This document shows, in pieces, positions 2,608 to 20,081 of a stretch of DNA of 64,000 bases. How positions within the stretch are numbered: the first letter of the stretch is position 1; every line of letters begins with the position of its first letter. The notes below the pieces were generated by a model. That model was given only the letters and a program-made list of their open reading frames with translations, searched no databases and was not told the DNA's origin. This stretch comes from an uncultured Sphingomonadaceae bacterium (GTDB taxonomy: Bacteria > Pseudomonadota > Alphaproteobacteria > Sphingomonadales > Sphingomonadaceae): assembly GCA_947488625.1 (NCBI GenBank), contig CANKZR010000002.1:186001-250000 (forward strand). The letters are read 5' to 3'. The position numbers and the translations under genes were made by a program.

Positions 2608-3882
2608 CTATTTCCCGATACAAAATCGGCCGAATAACGCATCAAGAACATCCTCGGTCGAGGTCCTGCCCACAAGCGTATCGAATGCTCGACGGGTTCG
2701 GCGGAGGTTTTCCGCCACCAGCAGCGGATCGCTTTCCCTATGCGCCATCTCGAGATGTTCGACCGCCTCACGCAAATGATCCCGCTGGCGCTTGTTTAGC
2801 GCCGCTCCTCCGGGTTTGGGCATCATCGAGCGTGCCGCATCGATCAATGCACTTCGCAAGGTTTGCATACCTTCATTCGTCAAAGCGGAAACACGAAAAT
2901 CAGGGGAACGCTTGCTTGCCAGCGCGTCGCGATCGATTTGAGCGGCGATTTCCCAACTTCCTTGAGGCCCCTGCCCTTCTTCCCCTAACCAGAGCACAAG
3001 GTCGGCCTTGGCAATTTCATCCTTCGCACGCGAAATGCCAATCGACTCAATCTCGTCGTCGCTATCGTCGCGAAGACCGGCCATGTCAGCAAAAGTGAAC
3101 GGTATTCCGGACAGCGCTACCGATCGCGTCAGCACATCGCGCGTCGTACCGGCAATGTCCGCCGTTATTGCAGCTTCGCTCTCGATGAGGGCGTTGAATA
3201 GCGTCGACTTGCCAGCATTCGGAGGGCCTGCCAGTGCCACACGAAACCCCTCGCGCAGCGTCTCCGCATGCGGTGCGGCAAGGCTCGTACGCAAGTCAGC
3301 CTCAAGGTCAGAAAGGTCTTCCGAGAAACGTTCCGGCAGACCCGCGACATCATCCTCATCGTCAAAATCCAGCACGGCTTCGACCTGTGCAGACAGGCGC
3401 AACAGGTCCTCGCGCCAGCTCTCTACCTGTCGCGACAACGCGCCACCGGCCATCGCCAGAGCGCTGCGACGCTGGAATTCGGTCTCGGCCGATAAAAGAT
3501 CCGCCAGCCCTTCGGCTTCGGCGAGATCAATGCGACCGTTGGCAAATGCTCGACGCGTGAATTCACCCGGCTCCGCCCGACGACAACCATCGAGTTCGTC
3601 GATCGCCTGCTCCACCGCAGCTATGACGGCGCGCCCCCCATGGCAATGAAGTTCGGCGAGGTCATCGCCGGTTACAGAATTGGGCGAGGGGAAAAAGAGC
3701 ACTAACCCGTCGTCGAGTGTTTCACGTGAAACATTGCGGAAAGTAGTTCGCACCGCACGGCGCGCCGGTGGAATGGTTCCAACGATTGTCTCGAGTACAT
3801 AACGTACTTGCGGTCCGGTGATGCGGATAACGCCAATTCCTGCAGGTGGCTGCCCGCTCGATAGCGCGTAGATCGTGCTCAT
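2608..3882 (-). CDS. mnmE: tRNA modification GTPase MnmE
   Basis: A 424-residue potassium-activated GTPase that partners MnmG in modifying tRNA wobble U34. The N-terminal tetrahydrofolate-binding domain is followed by a G domain with G1 GPPNAGKST (219-227), the G2 threonine (TT, 246-247) and G3 DMAG (266-269); the protein ends in the essential CIGK motif (421-424). The usual G4 NKxD is replaced by AQID (314-317), a possible loss of guanine specificity. The ATG at 3882 gives the conserved start MSTIYALSSG and avoids overlap with the upstream gene; an in-frame extension to 3936 is unlikely. A consensus parS (3718-3733) lies inside. Confidence 0.95.
   Translation of the reverse strand: MSTIYALSSGQPPAGIGVIRITGPQVRYVLETIVGTIPPARRAVRTTFRNVSRETLDDGLVLFFPSPNSVTGDDLAELHCHGGRAVIAAVEQAIDELDGCRRAEPGEFTRRAFANGRIDLAEAEGLADLLSAETEFQRRSALAMAGGALSRQVESWREDLLRLSAQVEAVLDFDDEDDVAGLPERFSEDLSDLEADLRTSLAAPHAETLREGFRVALAGPPNAGKSTLFNALIESEAAITADIAGTTRDVLTRSVALSGIPFTFADMAGLRDDSDDEIESIGISRAKDEIAKADLVLWLGEEGQGPQGSWEIAAQIDRDALASKRSPDFRVSALTNEGMQTLRSALIDAARSMMPKPGGAALNKRQRDHLREAVEHLEMAHRESDPLLVAENLRRTRRAFDTLVGRTSTEDVLDALFGRFCIGK
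3718..3733. other. parS partition site 5 (in mnmE)
   Basis: TGTTTCACGTGAAACA, identical to the classical consensus parS of Bacillus and other bacteria. It lies inside mnmE and is read as NVSRET. Confidence 0.93.
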
Positions 3883-6917: not shown

Positions 6918-7934
6918 TCATCCGCGCACGATCTGGAGAAGTCTTTCCACATGGGCGATCGGGGTTTCCTTGTCGATGCCATGGCCCAGATTGAATATGT
7001 GCGGGCGCCCTTCGAATGCCGAGAGAATATGCCGCGCCGAATCTTCCATCGCCTTGCCGCCAGCCAGCAGCAGCATGGGATCAAGATTGCCCTGCACCGG
7101 CATATCCGCGGGCAGTTCGGAATTGATCCAGACAGGATCGGTCGTCTCGTCGATCCCCAGCGCATCCACCCCGGTTTCACGGGCATAGGCAGGCAACTTG
7201 GCGCCCGCCCCCTTGGGGAAACCGATGACGGGAACACCGGGGCGCTGTTCGTGAATGGCGGCAGCAATGCGAGCGTTGGGTGCGATCACCCATTTTTCGA
7301 ACTGTGCAGGACTGAGCGAACCGGCCCAGCTGTCGAAAAGTTGCACCGCTTCTGCACCGGCATCGATCTGTCCGACGAGATATTCGATACTCGCGCTCTC
7401 GATTGCGCCGATCAGCGAGGCAAAGGCCTCGGGATCGCGGTAGGCCAGCTTGCGCGCCGTGCCCTGGTCTTTCGAACCCTGCCCGGCCACCATGTATGTC
7501 GCCACCGTCCATGGAGAACCCGCAAAGCCCAGCAAGGTGGTCTCAGAGCCCAAACGCGCCTTCACAGCCGCCACGGTACGGTAGATCGCATCAAAGTGAT
7601 GGAAGGCACGCTCCAGCCCTTCCCAGGCCCCATCGGCGAGCGAAGGAGCAAGCCGCGGTCCCTCGCCAGCTTCGAACCACAGGTCCTGACCCAGCGCGTG
7701 CGGCACGATGAGGATATCCGAAAACAGGATGGCACCATCGAAACCGAAGCGGTCGATCGGCTGGATCGTGACCTCGGCTGCCGCTTCATGATCGTAGACC
7801 AGTTCCAGAAATCCGCCCTTTTCCGCGCGCAATTCGCGGTATTCGGGAAGGTATCGTCCAGCCTGCCGCATGAGCCAGACCGGGCGTCTTGCGGTCCGCT
7901 GACCGGCAAGCGTTTCAAGGAGACATCCGGGCAT
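6918..7934 (-). CDS. hemE: Uroporphyrinogen decarboxylase
   Basis: A 338-residue enzyme that removes four carboxyl groups from uroporphyrinogen III to give coproporphyrinogen III. The N-terminal substrate-binding signature PVWLMRQAGRYLPEY is intact, as are the downstream DILIVPHALG and GFAGSPWT motifs. The ATG at 7934 is chosen; an in-frame TTG at 7946 would add four residues. Its upstream region is the presumed replication origin. On the minus strand a TATAAT at 7966-7971 in an AT-rich run could be its -10 element, although no good -35 is visible. Confidence 0.95.
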   Translation of the reverse strand: MPGCLLETLAGQRTARRPVWLMRQAGRYLPEYRELRAEKGGFLELVYDHEAAAEVTIQPIDRFGFDGAILFSDILIVPHALGQDLWFEAGEGPRLAPSLADGAWEGLERAFHHFDAIYRTVAAVKARLGSETTLLGFAGSPWTVATYMVAGQGSKDQGTARKLAYRDPEAFASLIGAIESASIEYLVGQIDAGAEAVQLFDSWAGSLSPAQFEKWVIAPNARIAAAIHEQRPGVPVIGFPKGAGAKLPAYARETGVDALGIDETTDPVWINSELPADMPVQGNLDPMLLLAGGKAMEDSARHILSAFEGRPHIFNLGHGIDKETPIAHVERLLQIVRG

Positions 7935-8236
7935 CGAAGAGTCCAATCAAACAATAAATATATATATTATAAAGGATTTAGGACGTTGTTGGTCCTGTGG
8001 ATTTCGGGGATATCGCGCCTTTGCCTGAATTCTGCCGGATTGAGAACCCATTTCAGGGCGTGCGACTCATGCTCGCTGGCGAGTCAAACGAGTCTTCTCC
8101 CCGCTATCCCCAGACTGTTAAGAACCAGGCTCATCTGTCTATGACCCGTCTCATCGAACCGGTTTGGATCGGGGGCTAACTTAACCGACAGCTTGTCCGC
8201 AGATCGATCCCGTGGTTTATGCCAGTGCTTATCCAC
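7935..8236. other. Probable chromosomal replication origin (oriC) in the hemE / ppsR gap
   Basis: This 302-bp gap lies between hemE and the RP001/UPF0085-type gene ppsR, the place of oriC in Caulobacter and Rickettsia (established). Visible here: an almost pure A/T tract at 7947-7979 that could be the unwinding element; a perfect DnaA box TTATCCACA at 8229-8237; and weaker 7-of-9 matches at 7996-8004 (reverse), 8104-8112 and 8193-8201. Gene direction switches from leftward to rightward across it, and the five parS sites lie 4-8 kb away. The gap must also hold the hemE and ppsR promoters. Origin function is inferred. Confidence 0.72.
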
Positions 8237-8237
8237 A
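8229..8237 (+). promoter_or_regulatory. DnaA box (perfect consensus)
   Basis: TTATCCACA, the exact high-affinity DnaA box. It ends on the A of the ppsR ATG chosen here. Its position inside the probable oriC makes a role in initiation likely. Confidence 0.65.
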
Positions 8238-9091
8238 TGGCCAGACTGCACCTTCATCTTCTCTCTGACTCGACCGGCGAAACGCTGGAAATGCTTGCAA
8301 AGGCAGCGCTGGCGCAGTTCGGCGATGCCGATGTGCAACGCCATTTCTGGCCGATGGTGCGATCTGTGCAGCACCTCGAGCGGATCATCGATGACTTCAA
8401 GACCAACCCCGGACTTGTTCTCTACACGTTGAGCAACGAGGCCACGCGCAAGCGGCTGGAGGAATGCTGTCGCCAGCTTGCCCTGCCCCATGTCGCCGCA
8501 CTGGACCCTGTCGTGGAGGCGCTGGAAGAACGGCTGGGCCAGGAAGCGCACGGTCGCCCCGGCGGCAAGAACAAGATGGACGCCGAGTATTTCGAGCGCG
8601 TCGATGCCATCCAGTTCACCATCGCCCATGACGACGGCATCAGCTGGGACGACTGGGAAGAGGCCGATATCCTGCTGGCGGGCGTTTCGCGCACCTCGAA
8701 AACGCCGACGAGCATCTACCTTGCGAACCGTGGCTTCAAGGTGGCCAATATTCCCCTGGTGGTGGAAAGCCCGCCGCCGAAGATGCTGTTCGGATTGCGC
8801 CATCCCATGGTGGTGGGCCTGACCACGGCGCCCGCGCGGCTGATACAGATCAGGCGCAACCGGCTGCTTTCCCTGAACGAAAAGACCGAGACCGCCTACG
8901 TGAACGAGGACAAGGTCAGCAAGGAAGTCGCCTTTGCCCGCCGCATGTTTGCCGACAATGGCTGGCCCGTGATCGACGTAACCCGGCGTTCGATCGAGGA
9001 AACCGCGGCAGCGATCATCAAGCTCTACCAGGAACGCGAAGGTCGCCGCGAAAACGACCGCGCCCCGCAGTCCGGCACAAAACCGATATGA
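8237..9091 (+). CDS. ppsR: PEP synthase / pyruvate phosphate dikinase regulatory protein (DUF299)
   Basis: A 284-residue bifunctional ADP-dependent kinase and Pi-dependent phosphorylase that inactivates and reactivates PEP synthase or pyruvate phosphate dikinase. The P-loop-like motif GVSRTSKTP (about 149-157) and the N-terminal [10 protein letters not shown] stretch identify the family. It is the RP001-type gene next to oriC. The ATG at 8237 gives the conserved start MARLHLHLL; another ATG at 8219 would add six residues and place the DnaA box in the coding region. It heads the rightward run ppsR-maf-aroE-coaE-dnaQ, the same order as the first genes of Caulobacter and Rickettsia. Confidence 0.93.
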
Positions 9092-14086: not shown

Positions 14087-14767
14087 ATGAAATTCATCAG
14101 CAAGCGAGTCGGAGCAACCGCTCTGGCTGCAACTTTGGTTGCGACATTCTTCGGCGCCGCAGGTAGCGATGCCGTCGCCCAGGACCAGGCAGAGCAGGAT
14201 TCGCTCGAAGTGGCCCGGACTCAATCAGCACCGGCTTTCGTTGCATCTGCCGCGGAACCCGAAGTCCGCTTCGTGATGAACGAGGTAGTGCAGGAACTTC
14301 CCGAAAAAGCTGAAGTTCCCGAAATTTCTCTTCCAACCCCAGGGGCCGCTGCATCTCTGCGCGAGCTCGTGGGTGACATCGATACCAGCGGCGAGATGTC
14401 GCGTGAAATGATGTGCCTTGCACAGGCCGTTTACTTCGAATCGCGTGGTGAACCGCTCGACGGTCAGCTGGCCGTTGCCCGCGTGGTCATCAACCGCGCG
14501 GAAAGCTCGCGTTTTCCCGACGATTACTGTTCGGTCGTGACGCAGCGGGCGCAGTTCTCCTTCGTGCGCGGTGGCCGCATCCCTGCCCCCAACCACTCCT
14601 CACGCGCATGGACAAAGGCCAAGGCCATTGCCCGCATCGCCCATCGCGACCTGTGGGAAAGCCCAGCCCACGATGCGTTGTATTTCCACGCGACCTACGT
14701 GCGTCCGAGTTGGGCCGGTCGCATGACGACGCGCGCAACCATCGATAACCACATTTTCTATCGGTAA
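14087..14767 (+). CDS. SleB-family cell wall hydrolase, secreted
   Basis: A 226-residue exported protein. Residues 1-28 form a signal peptide (Lys/Arg start, hydrophobic Ala-rich core, AVA cleavage site). A disordered acidic region leads into the hydrolase domain from about residue 105, with AVYFESRGEPLDGQLAVARV holding the conserved catalytic glutamate. SleB-type enzymes are lytic transglycosylases of peptidoglycan. The ATG at 14087 is used because it gives a clean signal peptide; the frame stays open about 90 bases upstream. A convergent hairpin terminator follows. Confidence 0.85.
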   Translation: MKFISKRVGATALAATLVATFFGAAGSDAVAQDQAEQDSLEVARTQSAPAFVASAAEPEVRFVMNEVVQELPEKAEVPEISLPTPGAAASLRELVGDIDTSGEMSREMMCLAQAVYFESRGEPLDGQLAVARVVINRAESSRFPDDYCSVVTQRAQFSFVRGGRIPAPNHSSRAWTKAKAIARIAHRDLWESPAHDALYFHATYVRPSWAGRMTTRATIDNHIFYR

Positions 14768-14814: not shown

Positions 14815-15600
14815 TCAGGTCTTCAACTCGACCCACACGGGCGTGTGATCGCTGGCTTTCTCTCGTCCGCGATATTCCTTGTCGACACCGGCGGCGGCCA
14901 TGCGATCCGCTGCTTCGGGCGATAACAGCAGGTGATCGATGCGAAACCCGTGATCGCGCTGCCAGGCACCTGCCTGGTAGTCCCAGAATGTCCACACCCC
15001 GCCGCGCGGGTTGAACGTGTCGATCGCATCGATCCAGCCATCACCCAGCAAGCGCGCATAGGCATTTCGCGATTCCGGTTGCATCAAGGCATCGTTCTCC
15101 ATGGCCTTTACGGACCAGACGTCCTTGTCCTCCGGGATGACGTTGTAATCGCCCAGTACGACGGTGGGCCGTTCCAGCGCAGACAGTTCGGCCATGCGCC
15201 TACGCAGCAGCTTCATCCACGCCAGTTTGTAATCGAATTTCGGGCCAGGCTGCGGATTGCCGTTGGGCAGGTAGAGGTTGCAGACACGCACGCCGTTTAC
15301 GTCGGCTTCCAGATAGCGAGCTTGCTCGCCCTCGCCTTCCTTGGGTCCATCAATGCCCAGCCCGCGCTGCGTTTCTACCGGCGCAACGCCATCGGCGAGA
15401 ATGGCAACACCGTTGAAACCCTTCTGGCCGTGCCAGATTGCCTTGTATCCCATGTCCTCGAACTCGGACGCCGGGAAGCCTTCGTCCTGTGTCTTGATTT
15501 CCTGCAGACAGGCAACAGCAGGACGGGTTTCTTCCAGCCATTCCTTGAGGCGCGGCAGACGCGCCTTGATCCCGTTGATGTTGTAGCTGGCGATCCGCAC
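14815..15600 (-). CDS. xthA: Exodeoxyribonuclease III
   Basis: A 261-residue endonuclease/exonuclease/phosphatase-fold enzyme for base excision repair (AP endonuclease, 3'-5' exonuclease, 3'-phosphatase). Motifs: SYNINGIKAR near the N-terminus, Glu34 in CLQEIKTQD for metal, the GDYNVIPEDKDVW active-site Asp/Asn block, and SDHTPVW at the C-terminus with the catalytic His. The GTG start at 15600 gives the family start VRIASYNING and lies 8 bp after the erpA stop; longer frames overlap erpA. Confidence 0.93.
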   Translation of the reverse strand: MRIASYNINGIKARLPRLKEWLEETRPAVACLQEIKTQDEGFPASEFEDMGYKAIWHGQKGFNGVAILADGVAPVETQRGLGIDGPKEGEGEQARYLEADVNGVRVCNLYLPNGNPQPGPKFDYKLAWMKLLRRRMAELSALERPTVVLGDYNVIPEDKDVWSVKAMENDALMQPESRNAYARLLGDGWIDAIDTFNPRGGVWTFWDYQAGAWQRDHGFRIDHLLLSPEAADRMAAAGVDKEYRGREKASDHTPVWVELKT

Positions 15601-15608
15601 AGATGTAC

Positions 15609-15938
15609 TCAGATGCCGAAGGAGCTGCCGCAGCCGCAACCGGCAGCGGCATTGGGATTTTCCACGCGGAAAGCAGCGCCGCCCAGCGATTCGACGTAAT
15701 CCACCGTGCAACCCGCCACGAGGTCGAGACTGACAGGGTCGACGACCAGTCGGACGCCGTCGGTTTCGCTCACCGCGTCATCGGCCTCCGGGGCATCATC
15801 CAGTTCGAACTTGTACTGAAAGCCCGAGCAGCCACCACCCTCCACGGACAGTCGCAGGACTGCGGGCTTGTCCTGTTTCTTGGCAATCAGGCCGATGCGC
15901 GAGGCGGCGGCTTGGGTGAGTGTAAGTGAACTGGTCAT
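15609..15938 (-). CDS. erpA: A-type iron-sulfur carrier protein ErpA/IscA
   Basis: A 109-residue HesB-family protein that carries Fe-S clusters to target enzymes. The three cluster-binding cysteines are present: Cys37 in GGGCSGFQY, and Cys101 and Cys103 in GCGCGSSF. The ATG at 15938 gives the usual start; an ATG further upstream adds unconserved residues. A second A-type protein ends the SUF operon at 48112-48477, so this one may be the specialised ErpA-like carrier. Confidence 0.9.
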   Translation of the reverse strand: MTSSLTLTQAAASRIGLIAKKQDKPAVLRLSVEGGGCSGFQYKFELDDAPEADDAVSETDGVRLVVDPVSLDLVAGCTVDYVESLGGAAFRVENPNAAAGCGCGSSFGI

Positions 15939-15970
15939 ATCAACCGATGTAGTGACCTTACGGCCTACCC

Positions 15971-16399
15971 TCAAGCTGTGGCGATATATTCACGCATTTG
16001 CTGAGCTTCGGCCTCGATGATTTCCATGCGGTATTTCACCAGGTCACCGATGGAGACAAAGCCGATCATCTTCGCGCCGTCCATCACTGGAAGGTGGCGG
16101 ATACGGCGGCGCGTCATCAGGGAAAGCGCCTTCAGGGCATCGGTGTCCAGGTCTATGGTGATGGCAGGCGACGTCATGACCTCGCCAACCGGGCGCGGAA
16201 GCACTTCCGCCCCGTCACGTGCGACGCAATAGAGCAGATCGCGTTCAGAAAAGATGCCCGCGATACCATCGCCATCCATCACGGGCAGGGCGCCGATCTT
16301 CTTGTCCGCCAGCAGCGTTGCCGCCAGCTGCACGCTATCCTGCGGCGTACAGGAAACGATCGTGTGATCGCGGTTGTTGACGATCTTGGAAATGGACAT
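15971..16399 (-). CDS. CBS-domain pair protein
   Basis: A 142-residue protein made of two CBS domains (about 8-60 and 72-128), with the repeated features IGALPVMDGDGIAGIFSERD and RHLPVMDGAKMIGFVSIGDL. CBS pairs bind adenosine nucleotides and usually act as regulatory modules; a stand-alone pair has no assigned target. A good ribosome site (GGAGAG) precedes the ATG. It is divergent from the next gene and reads toward erpA. Confidence 0.88.
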   Translation of the reverse strand: MSISKIVNNRDHTIVSCTPQDSVQLAATLLADKKIGALPVMDGDGIAGIFSERDLLYCVARDGAEVLPRPVGEVMTSPAITIDLDTDALKALSLMTRRRIRHLPVMDGAKMIGFVSIGDLVKYRMEIIEAEAQQMREYIATA

Positions 16400-16513
16400 T
16401 CTCGCTCTCCTTCATGTGTTGCGCGCCGGAGTCTGCCGCGATTGTGCCACGACAGGGCGGCTCTGGGCAAATCATGGCCTATTGGACCCTTGCTGTATCC
16501 ACCGTCCGCAGGC

Positions 16514-16897
16514 ATGGCTCACCTCATGTCAAAGCCTTCCCCGCTCGACGATCCGGAAAACGCTGCCTTCGCGTGGGCGCGATATCGCCGCCTGATGCGA
16601 CTTATGATGGGGATCACGCTGTCAACGGTAATCATCGCCCTGGCAGTGATCTACAAGCAAGTGGACGAGGTTTCTCCGCACCTCTTCATCGCCGCAGCGC
16701 TGGGCATCGGTTTCTCGATGCTATTGATGAGCGCGTTGATGGGGCTGGTGTTTCTTTCCAGCGGTACCGGCCATGACAATGCGGTGGAGCACGATCTGGA
16801 TAAACTGGATCCGGATGCCGCGGGTTCGAATGGCCAGCACAGGGACCGGCCGAGGGATCGCCGAACCATGGGCTGGAAAGAGGGCGCGGAGCGCTAA
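16514..16897 (+). CDS. Small two-helix membrane protein, unknown function
   Basis: A 127-residue protein with two transmembrane segments (about 36-55 and 62-84), a charged N-terminus and a polar Asp/Arg-rich cytoplasmic tail. I do not recognise a named family, though similar small proteins are common in sphingomonads. The ATG at 16514 follows GCAGG; an ATG four codons later is also possible. Its stop overlaps the convergent ferredoxin stop region by a few bases (16894-16897). Confidence 0.7.
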
Positions 16898-17265
16898 TCG
16901 CGCTTCGGCCTCAGGCGAAACTCTTCTACCGGCTGGCCGCCGATCAGGTGTTCCTGGATAATTCGTTCCAGTACCTCTTCGGTACAGGAACGGTACCATA
17001 CGCCGTCGGGATAGACGACGGCGACAGGTCCCGCTTCGCAAACTTGCAGGCAATCGGCCTTGGTGCGCTGGACGCCGCCCTTTCCGGCGATGCCCAGCTG
17101 TTTCATCCGACGTTTCAGATACTTCCAGGCGCGCTCCCCGACGTCGCGTTTGCAGCACTTCTCCTTGCCTGCCATCGCGCAGATGAAGATATGACGTTCG
17201 ATCGACTCCCCGCCGATCTTGGCAAGAGCACGTTCGGCCTTTTCGATTTCTCGCTTGTTAGTCAG
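16894..17265 (-). CDS. Thioredoxin-like (2Fe-2S) ferredoxin
   Basis: About 123 residues of thioredoxin-fold [2Fe-2S] ferredoxin. The cluster cysteines lie in [14 protein letters not shown] and [11 protein letters not shown], the spacing of this family; the electron partner is unknown. Family members begin near [13 protein letters not shown]. The codon there is CTG at 17263-17265, overlapping the upstream TGA (CTGA) and preceded by GGAAAG about eight bases away. The only other in-frame start is an ATG at 17343, which would add 26 unconserved Arg-rich residues over the popZ-like gene, so a CTG start is proposed. Confidence 0.8.
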
Positions 17266-17750
17266 GGCTTCTTTCCGGCGATGCGGGCGATCTCGGCTTT
17301 CACGAGGCGTTCGACTATTTCGGGCAGATTCGCATCCAGCCATTGCGCCAGCATTGGGCGCATCATTTCGCGCACCAGGCCTTCCACCGAAGTCTCTCCG
17401 GAGCGCACGATCTGCGGCTTGGCAGGAGGATCGGACAACATTGCCAGCGCAGCAAGCGACTGGCGCATGGCATCGGCAGCGCGATCGGTGGTAAGTTTCT
17501 CCTCACTTTTCCCGCTATCGTCGCTGACTTCGATCGGGTCGCTCTCATCCTCGTCTTCGTGAAGAGTGGAGCCGACCAGGCCCAGGTCGAGAATGTCGTC
17601 CTCCTCGTCCTCTTTGGATTCCTGCCGGGCCACGAGGCCTTCACGGCGGCGCGCCTTGGTAGCCTGCGCTGCCTCGCTGGCATCGCGCGCAATCACCTTC
17701 TTGATCGAATCAAGAATTTCCTCGACCGACGGTTCGCCTTCCTGCCGCAT
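17262..17750 (-). CDS. popZ: PopZ-like polar organising protein (DUF2497)
   Basis: A 162-residue protein with the PopZ layout: a short N-terminal helix ([15 protein letters not shown], about 6-20), a long acidic disordered middle rich in Asp and Glu, and a conserved C-terminal helical block (about 125-158, with [18 protein letters not shown]). In Caulobacter PopZ forms a polar matrix that anchors ParB-parS at the cell pole, which fits the parS cluster in this window. Whether this sphingomonad protein has that role is inferred. It directly follows tolC and overlaps the ferredoxin. Confidence 0.82.
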
Positions 17751-19274
17751 TCAATTCCCCTGGGTATTCAGCTGCCCTGGTGCCGTATCCGAATAATCGA
17801 TGATTTCGGTATCGAATTCTTCCAGCGGCTGGTTGCCATCAACTTCCCCATCCGGGGCCATGATGTCAACGGTTCGCGAACTCGTGGCGACAGGTTCGGG
17901 GTCGCGCTGCCAATCCCAGATAATGCCGCGAACGCGATCGTAATTGTCGATGGGATCGTAAAGCACGCCCTCGTCGCCAAGGCCCAGATCGCGCGCCTCG
18001 GCCCTGCCCATCGCCGCGAGCAGGGAAAAACCGGCGACGTAGGCGTTGCGCCGCGCGGTTACGAGCTGGACCTGCGCGCTGAGCAATTCCTGCTGCGCAT
18101 CGAGGATATCGAGAACGGTCCGGTTGCCCACCGTGTTTTCGGCGCGAACACCCTCCAGGCTGAGGGCAGCGGCATCGACCGCCGCCTGGCTGGAGGCGAT
18201 AATTGCATTGGCCGCGCGCCAGCTGGAATAGGCCGCACGCACCTGGGCGATAATGTTGCGTTCCGTGGCGATAACCTGCTCGAGCTGTGCCTGCGCCTGC
18301 GCCGTGGCCTGTCGCTGCTGCGCGGCAACGCGGCCACCCTGAAACAACGGCAAGGTCATGCGGATACCGGCCGTGGCGCTGGTGGCCGTCTGGTCTGCCG
18401 TGGTGCCCGGGACGGCACCCAGAGTACCGAGGAAGTTCTGGTAGCCGCCGTTGGTGAAGGCGCTGAAGGTGGGCAAGCGGCCCGCGCCGGCAACTTCGAT
18501 ATCGAACCCTGCGGCAACGGCCCGTTCCTGCGCTGCGAGGAGGTCGGGATTGTTCTCCAGCGCCACCTGCACCGCCATGTCGGGGCTTTCGGGAAGGCCC
18601 GGAAGAGGTGGCGGCGGCTGCAGATCGGTAGGCGCTTCACCCACCAGGGCAATGTAGTTTTCGCGCGCCGAAAGCAGGTTCGCCTCCGCCGTGCGCAAGT
18701 CCCCGCGTGCCAGAGCCAGCCGGCTTTCCGACTGCGCCACGTCGGTGCGCGTCAGGTCTCCGATTTCGAAACGGTCGCTGGTGGCTTCGAGGTTGATCGA
18801 GAGCACTTCGACATTGTTGGCCGACAGACCGACGAGCGCCTCGTTCAGGATGACATTCATGTAGGTCGAGACGACCTGTGTGAAAATCGTGCTCTCGGTA
18901 CCGCGAAGGTCTGCCCTGCCCGCTTGCACCCGGTTTTCCGCCGCGCGGATGCCGTTTTTCACAGCCCCGCCCTGATATAGCGGAACGGCGAGATCGACGC
19001 CGGCATTGATCTGGCGTTCCGGCGCGATGAAGCTGGTAGAGTTCTGTACGAGGAATTCGGAGTATGTCGTGGTCGTGTTGACCGAGGGCAGACCCTGGGA
19101 CCGCTGGATCACGACGTTTTCATCGATCGCGCGCTGTTGTGCACGGGCGGCTTCCAGAGTGGGGTTGTCAAAATAGGCCTGCGTCAGCGCTTCCTTCAGC
19201 GTGTCGGCCGATGCAGGGGAAGCAAGCAGGGTGACGCCCGCCATTGCGGTTGCCAGCCGAAAAGCGGGGCGCAT
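17751..19274 (-). CDS. tolC: TolC-family outer membrane channel protein
   Basis: A 507-residue outer-membrane efflux protein with a signal peptide (about 1-23, ending ASPASA) and two OEP repeats of coiled-coil and beta-strand, seen in the paired stretches around INAGVDLAVPLYQGGAVKNG and IRMTLPLFQGGRVAAQQR. It forms the outer-membrane tunnel for tripartite exporters or type I secretion; no pump gene adjoins. It starts 2 bp after the methyltransferase stop, with GGAG inside that gene as ribosome site. The PIMT-tolC-popZ order is common in alphaproteobacteria. Confidence 0.93.
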   Translation of the reverse strand: MRPAFRLATAMAGVTLLASPASADTLKEALTQAYFDNPTLEAARAQQRAIDENVVIQRSQGLPSVNTTTTYSEFLVQNSTSFIAPERQINAGVDLAVPLYQGGAVKNGIRAAENRVQAGRADLRGTESTIFTQVVSTYMNVILNEALVGLSANNVEVLSINLEATSDRFEIGDLTRTDVAQSESRLALARGDLRTAEANLLSARENYIALVGEAPTDLQPPPPLPGLPESPDMAVQVALENNPDLLAAQERAVAAGFDIEVAGAGRLPTFSAFTNGGYQNFLGTLGAVPGTTADQTATSATAGIRMTLPLFQGGRVAAQQRQATAQAQAQLEQVIATERNIIAQVRAAYSSWRAANAIIASSQAAVDAAALSLEGVRAENTVGNRTVLDILDAQQELLSAQVQLVTARRNAYVAGFSLLAAMGRAEARDLGLGDEGVLYDPIDNYDRVRGIIWDWQRDPEPVATSSRTVDIMAPDGEVDGNQPLEEFDTEIIDYSDTAPGQLNTQGN

Positions 19275-19276
19275 GG

Positions 19277-19894
19277 TCAGAAGCTCCAGCCCTTTGGCTT
19301 GTCGAATTCGTGCAGTTGCGGAATGCCGATATCGTAGACAGGCATAAGCGAAATACCGCCGTCGCCCTTCCGGCCCACGGCAATCCGCGTTACCCCGCCG
19401 CTGACGATACCGGTCACGATGCGTGCGCCATCGGCAAGGCGTTTGGCGAGCGAGGCGGGTATTTCCTCCACCGCGCCATCGATTACCAGCAGATCTGCAC
19501 CCTTGCCCTTCGTACCCTTGCCGACGGCTTCTTCAGGGCTGATTACGGTAAGGTTCGCAACCATCGGACGCAGCAATTCGGCCAGGTAGCCCGAGCCTGC
19601 ATCCACGACGATGGCCTTTTCCATACCCGCAGGCGCGGCTTCTTCCAGTATCTTGCCCTGCACCAGCGGAGCAGGCAGCCACGCGCCGTTTTCGAGGCGG
19701 ATCGCGCGATCGACATAGGCCACGCCCTTGCTGGCGGCGGGCACGAAATCCTCGCGCGGCACCTGCGACATCCGGCGGATGACGGCGGGCGCATTTACGC
19801 CGCTGGTGCGCAACTGGCTGTCAATCATCGCGCGGCGCGCGGGATTGCTGGCGATGTTGGCTGCTTCGGCAGAATCGAGCGGGTCGGAAATCAC
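19277..19894 (-). CDS. Protein-L-isoaspartate O-methyltransferase-like protein
   Basis: A 205-residue SAM-dependent methyltransferase-like protein of the PIMT family. The N-terminal signature RRAMIDSQLRTSGV and the motif I VVDAGSGYLAEL are visible, but the SAM loop and later motifs are weaker than in true Pcm, so repair of isoaspartate is uncertain. The GTG at 19894 has a GAGAGA ribosome site eight bases upstream; a frame to 19957 adds low-complexity Ala/Pro residues. It lies directly before tolC, and a link with envelope protein quality is only inferred. Confidence 0.8.
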   Translation of the reverse strand: MISDPLDSAEAANIASNPARRAMIDSQLRTSGVNAPAVIRRMSQVPREDFVPAASKGVAYVDRAIRLENGAWLPAPLVQGKILEEAAPAGMEKAIVVDAGSGYLAELLRPMVANLTVISPEEAVGKGTKGKGADLLVIDGAVEEIPASLAKRLADGARIVTGIVSGGVTRIAVGRKGDGGISLMPVYDIGIPQLHEFDKPKGWSF

Positions 19895-20081
19895 TGCGTC
19901 AATCTCTCGTGCTTGCTGGACGAAAATCGCCTTAGGGGCTGCCGGGGCGGCGGGCAATGCCCGCGTTGTCGCAATTCGTCACACCCGGTTCGGACGATAG
20001 CGGCAATGGACAATGAAACGCCTTTGACCACATAGGCCCGCCATGCCTATGGGCAACTCGACCAAGAGGAGTGCAGAAACG

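Follow-up and report, generated by a model that had tools for sequence, protein, structure and literature searches.

A probable hemE-linked chromosomal replication origin in an Erythrobacter/Aurantiacibacter-type alphaproteobacterium

The short gap between the divergent genes hemE and ppsR is, in all probability, a DnaA-dependent chromosomal oriC of an Erythrobacter/Aurantiacibacter-type alphaproteobacterium, spanning positions 7947–8237 of the window—the stretch of 64,000 nucleotides analysed here, corresponding to contig C2:186001–250000 of a draft genome (G000) of 3,212,743 bases in 14 contigs. The location of the site, its elements, their conservation, the switch in strand polarity and a cluster of parS sites can be read directly from the DNA. 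An earlier note on this DNA had proposed the gap as the probable replication origin of the genome. This proposal is supported by the parS cluster, a flip in the orientation of GGGNAGGG, an AT-rich tract, a gene-strand-corrected skew, the divergent arrangement of hemE and ppsR in 80 of 80 related loci, the conservation of DnaA boxes 1 and 4 and the absence of a polarity flip at dnaA.

Gene neighbourhood and conserved elements of the gap

The source genome is that of a sphingomonad of the Erythrobacter group, as its ppsR is 95% identical to the ppsR of Aurantiacibacter rhizosphaerae. As in other hemE-linked origins, the site is located between hemE on the left (6918–7946, minus strand; TIGR01464 at 379.9 bits against a cut-off of 303, PF01208) and, on the right, a ppsR gene of the COG1806/DUF299 type (8237–9091, plus strand; PF03618 at 308.7 bits, NF003742). 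The two genes diverge from a gap of 290 bp (C2:193947–194236), the ppsR start at 8237 being the author's choice and an in-frame ATG at 8219 the other open start. Profile matches to the flanking genes bear out the order given in the earlier note, with hemE followed across the gap by ppsR, maf, aroE, coaE and dnaQ. To the left of hemE lie a UPF0093 gene, rho, mnmE, mnmG and rsmG, and then ParA- and ParB-type genes (C2:184.3–186.1 kb, locus L003). The divergent hemE–gap–ppsR arrangement is found in all 80 close loci (the best 80 of 561 confirmed ones; gap 279–386 bp) and in all 20 genomes from other families of the order (gap 312–497 bp). The order set comprises 20 of 24 genomes, leaving out G049 (contig start), G053 (partial match), G055 (without ppsR) and G056 (small contig). 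For the alignment of gaps, the 80 relatives and the window were combined without dropping a locus (n = 81); counts over these 81 gaps are not independent events, since the 80 loci are close relatives. With G000 withheld, a profile of the 80 related gaps recovers the gap at an E value of 3.8e-66, with one other match (E 0.074) in the sampled genome, and finds little in the 20 order loci (best E 0.0009).

The start codon of hemE is adjoined by an AT-rich tract (7947–7979, four G/C in 33), the probable DNA unwinding element. This tract, to which the earlier note had drawn attention, is indeed present and is unequalled in the 984 kb sampled for AT content and skew (about 31% of the genome): it is the sole cluster with at most five G/C per 33 in these 984,000 bases, and the only such cluster of the window begins at 7940. 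An AT content above that of the genome is a feature of hemE-linked alphaproteobacterial oriC. Among the 81 gaps the tract varies, the most AT-rich 33-mer no further than 150 bp from hemE containing at most five G/C in 35, at most seven in 63 and at most nine in 73 of them.

Four DnaA boxes are distributed over the gap. Box 1, AAATCCACA (7996–8004, minus strand), has two mismatches and is kept at two or fewer in 79 of the 81 gaps. Boxes 2 and 3—CTATCCCCA at 8104–8112 and TTGTCCGCA at 8193–8201, both on the plus strand and both with two mismatches—are kept less well than boxes 1 and 4: box 2 has at most two mismatches in 40 and at most three in 62 gaps, box 3 at most two in 23 and at most three in 70. 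Box 4, TTATCCACA (8229–8237, plus strand), is perfect, with at most one mismatch in 52 and at most two in 77 of the gaps. It abuts the chosen ppsR start codon, its final A doubling as the first base of that ATG (8237). The one perfect and three weaker boxes announced in the earlier note were thus all recovered at that count, none of them with a single mismatch; the interval that the note had assigned to the origin, 7935–8236, has to be extended by one base on the right to include the end of the perfect box. In this one genome, the DnaA boxes alone are weak evidence, suggestive and not unique. When the gap was shuffled 1000 times with its dinucleotides preserved, at least four such boxes arose 14 times; in the sampled genome, 8 out of 3336 windows of 299 bp contain as many, in a sample where L003 and the window overlap by 12 kb. 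Counting generic boxes genome-wide was rejected as an origin finder: TTWTNCACA occurs 41 times, one of them in the gap, versus 40 times for the reversed control. Across relatives, boxes with at most one mismatch number 1.40 per gap versus 0.07 in shuffles for the 81 gaps, and 3.90 versus 0.12 for the 20 order gaps; at least one is present in 70 of the 81 gaps and none in 11. Boxes that are conserved and exceed chance are what is expected of an oriC.

A GANTC site (GACTC, 8064–8068) of the type methylated by CcrM is conserved in every one of the 81 gaps, a second (8081–8085) in 32 and a third (8090–8094) in six. The three sites of the window fall within 31 bp (8064–8094), and three or more are found in 29 of 3270 sampled windows of 299 bp. 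GANTC is enriched in the family gaps (4.21 versus 1.31 in shuffles) and is not general in the order, where 8 of 20 gaps are without any. Timing by methylation is plausible, given this enrichment and the presence in the genome of a RAMA-domain (CcrM-type) match and of GcrA matches. In Caulobacter and near relatives, GANTC sites are described in the origin, and loss of CcrM left the DNA content the same in minimal medium, according to an excerpt of PMC3973325. Close to ppsR, the motif GTGGTTTATG (8212–8221, plus strand) is strongly kept, being exact in 56 of the 81 gaps and differing by one letter or gap in 24 of the remaining 25. It resembles no clear DnaA, CtrA or IHF site.

Strand polarity, parS sites and the position of the origin

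The earlier note had suggested looking for a skew minimum within 1 kb of the site. The raw cumulative GC skew does not provide it, as its minimum in the window lies at 18015, 10 kb to the right of the gap; a switch in the expected place emerges once the effect of gene strand is removed (C2:194000). In closed relatives, the raw minimum is found at +9.4 kb (G002), +9.3 kb (G036) and +29.9 kb (G010), and in the fourth, G018, close to where the analysed stretch begins on its left side. Taken at face value, the raw minimum of the window and those of G002 and G036 would indicate a true origin some 10 kb further right, at 16–20 kb of the window, with the hemE gap as a conserved neighbour only. Raw cumulative skew was nevertheless discarded as a locator: it points 10 kb off, and minus-strand reading frames occupy 14815–19957. 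Because such frames can lower the raw skew, gene strand was modelled. Third-position G versus C was fitted by gene strand and replichore to 291 predicted genes covering 337 kb of C2, on a 1-kb grid along this 545-kb contig, the genes coming from the author's ORF scorer and not from curated annotation. The best switch is at C2:194000, that is, at the gap, and exceeds the model with no switch by 18.7 log-likelihood units. Positions at 191–196 kb and also at 201 and 204 kb on C2 stay within two units of the best, the latter two being consistent with the more rightward position. A switch in strand composition, as expected at an oriC, is therefore seen at the site only after gene-strand correction. 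Among the relatives, the corrected switch is placed at +125 bp of ppsR in G002 (2.5 log units over none; range −39 to +25 kb) and at −5 bp in G018 (4.6 units over none; range −1.5 to +12 kb), and at +42 kb in G036 and +33 kb in G010, where the gap is 5.6 and 2.2 log units worse, respectively.

The orientation of GGGNAGGG, counted on sampled stretches of the genome, changes at the gap: forward and reverse copies on the sampled part of C2 are in a ratio of 4:13 to the left and 30:9 to the right (Fisher p 2.8e-4). Reverse copies continue on the right to 18914, with others at 14581 and 18002, which again would suit an origin 10 kb further on. With the best corrected switch at the gap, and with no equally AT-rich tract at 16–20 kb, such an origin is nonetheless highly improbable. 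An opposite flip of GGGNAGGG, from 82:8 to 3:16, was observed near C1:1.34 Mb, the border having been picked after seeing the data; this region is probably the terminus.

Sites for ParB point to the same place as the corrected skew. Perfect parS sites are located at 153–168 (TGTTCCACGTGGAACA), 515–530, 2590–2605 and 3718–3733, and a parS-like site with one mismatch at 1149–1164. These five are the genome's total at one mismatch or fewer, and all lie 4.2–7.8 kb from the gap, within the distance of about 10 kb expected between chromosomal parS and oriC. In 10 of 12 relatives, the perfect parS sites lie on the same side as hemE and no more than 10 kb from ppsR; of the remaining two, G049 fits across contig ends if circular, and G041 is without parS. 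On the other side of the gap, 9 kb from the predicted origin, lies a PopZ-family gene (17262–17750, minus strand; PF10691 at 88 bits), which scores 109.4 with the NCBIfam model PopZ_fam, under its cut-off of 125. In Hyphomonas neptunium, PopZ appears to be required for anchoring the ori regions, as stated in an excerpt of PMC6650430.

The gene for DnaA is remote from the gap: it lies on contig C1 at 253.5 kb (L260:970–2439), and in the seven genus relatives measured it is 337–517 kb away from ppsR (in G036 counted across contig ends). In many bacteria, the origin is found beside dnaA. Were this so here, the gap would be an ordinary divergent promoter region and its conserved blocks transcription signals, a reading favoured by the fact that hemE and ppsR both start at the gap and that some blocks, such as GTGGTTTATG, are not DnaA boxes. 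Against an origin at dnaA, GGGNAGGG forms a one-polarity block there, with the same orientation prevailing on either side (12:2 and 14:1); the distance between dnaA and ppsR, the parS sites and the corrected skew likewise argue for the gap. The promoter reading is already contradicted by these observations and must be considered exceedingly improbable.

The linker beside DnaA box 1 and the DnaA ATPase domain

Between the AT-rich tract and box 1 lies a conserved linker (7980–7995, plus strand) ending in TTGTTGGTCC, whose TGTTGG columns are identical in 73–81 of the 81 gaps. The succession of DnaA box, G/C spacer and AT-rich tract is one that the window shares with the basal unwinding system as described in excerpts of PMC8287927 and PMC10721633. 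The linker occupies the position held by DnaA-trios in other origins and departs from the strict trio pattern, defined from PMC8287927 as (NAN)x3 with a spacer of at most 16 bp from the box. This test could be anchored in 81 of 81 family gaps and in 19 of 20 order gaps. Unlike the basal unwinding system with DnaA-trios, the window contains no strict trio, and the pattern is absent from 72 of the 81 family gaps; it is found in the other nine (shuffles 13%) and in 7 of the 19 anchored order gaps (shuffles 35%). TAGTAG runs occur in three order gaps.

In the Bacillus subtilis protein, Asn187 of DnaA contacts the trio adenine, according to an excerpt of PMC10721633; in the DnaA of the window's genus, the residue aligned with Asn187 of chain 8btg_A is Val229. 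The DnaA of the genus features a diverged ATPase domain, with the Walker A motif AATGQGKT and with QEELLYTID where others have QEEFFHTFN. Its score to PF00308 is about 50 bits lower than in other families of the order (174–180 bits in five genus members versus 221–242 in 20 other-family genomes). Within the family, PF00308 is matched in 148 of 149 genomes with best scores of 161–234 except for one fragment at 79, and the Walker A motif is normal in the DnaA of L256 and L259. It is conceivable, and on balance rather doubtful, that origins of the Erythrobacter/Novosphingobium lineage open by an altered single-strand code, in which a fixed TGTTGG-type linker has taken the place of 3′-GAT-5′ trios and the ATPase domain of DnaA has been remodelled in parallel (AATGQGKT as Walker A, and Val aligned with Asn187). 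A simple residue-for-base pairing between DnaA residue 187 and the trio base found no support when 25 and 30 DnaA sequences were compared by eye. Order members with Tyr or Phe at this position carry TAG and TTG linkers alike, and 15 of 30 family members whose ATPase domain is ordinary have Val as well, in a set that leans to such domains because it consists of the best-scoring 30 of 148 family genomes.

Relation to known origins and proposed working

As a predicted origin, the gap belongs to the hemE-linked origins of alphaproteobacteria. For Sphingomonadaceae—exemplified by Sphingopyxis granuli TFA and DoriC entries—a location at hemE, a putative DUE and conserved boxes have already been published (PMC4741004), so that the origin described here is expected and, as a discovery, ordinary. 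It shares with these origins the family, the hemE side, the conserved gene order, the DnaA boxes and the putative DUE. The published origins, which are from other genera, were predicted by Ori-Finder and comparison; GANTC conservation and gene-strand-corrected skew are given here and do not appear in the available excerpt of PMC4741004. The origin of Novosphingobium PP1Y has also been placed near hemE (PMC4059872, in excerpt). Among the literature matches listed, no title concerned experimental origin mapping in Sphingomonadaceae. In Hyphomonas neptunium, the marker frequency maximum is close to hemE, and parAB is located about 7 kb from hemE with two parS sites upstream; neither skew nor dnaA nor DnaA boxes provided a clear answer in that organism (PMC6650430, in excerpt). 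The Hyphomonas origin has been mapped experimentally, and that of the window is predicted from sequence.

Cori, the origin of Caulobacter crescentus (Brassinga et al. 2001, as cited in PMC1914354 and PMC4741004), resembles the gap in its hemE/COG1806 flanks, AT-rich region and DnaA boxes (PMC1914354), in its weak boxes (PMC4468827) and in its GANTC sites (PMC3973325), each as far as the excerpts go. An origin of the Cori type, with cell-cycle repression by CtrA, would agree with these shared flanking genes and with the CcrM-type (RAMA) and GcrA matches of the genome. A CtrA half-site, TTAACC, lies at 8181, but is found in just 4 of the 81 gaps, and the full TTAA-N7-TTAA site, which Cori has, occurs in none of them. 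The gap of the window lacks the loose form TTWW-N7-TTWW, which 23 of the 81 family gaps and 12 of the 20 order gaps contain. It also lacks the IHF pattern WATCAN5WTR, another difference from Cori; this pattern was found in 9 of the 81 gaps. Predicted CtrA sites in the origins of Wolbachia and Rickettsia (PMC1914354, in excerpt) speak for the Cori type, which in view of the missing sites appears very unlikely here.

For the hemE-linked, DnaA-dependent origin, we infer DnaA binding, opening, helicase loading and methylation control at the gap from its anatomy and from what is established about origins in bacteria. DnaA would bind box 4, the perfect one next to ppsR, as well as the conserved boxes of weaker match, the weak ones being filled from the strong. 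An oligomer on box 1 would then open the AT-rich tract beside hemE, where helicases would be loaded and from where forks would depart in both directions. ParB bound to the parS cluster 4–8 kb to the left would move new origins apart, and CcrM methylation of the conserved GANTC may mark newly copied ones.

The blocks kept among the 81 gaps—box 1, box 4 at the ppsR start, one GANTC, TGTTGG and GTGGTTTATG—make tests of DnaA, CcrM and unwinding easy to design. As the zero point of the chromosome, the predicted origin would allow strand bias, dosage and gene order to be read correctly across the window, with the hemE side as the left arm and the ppsR side as the right arm.
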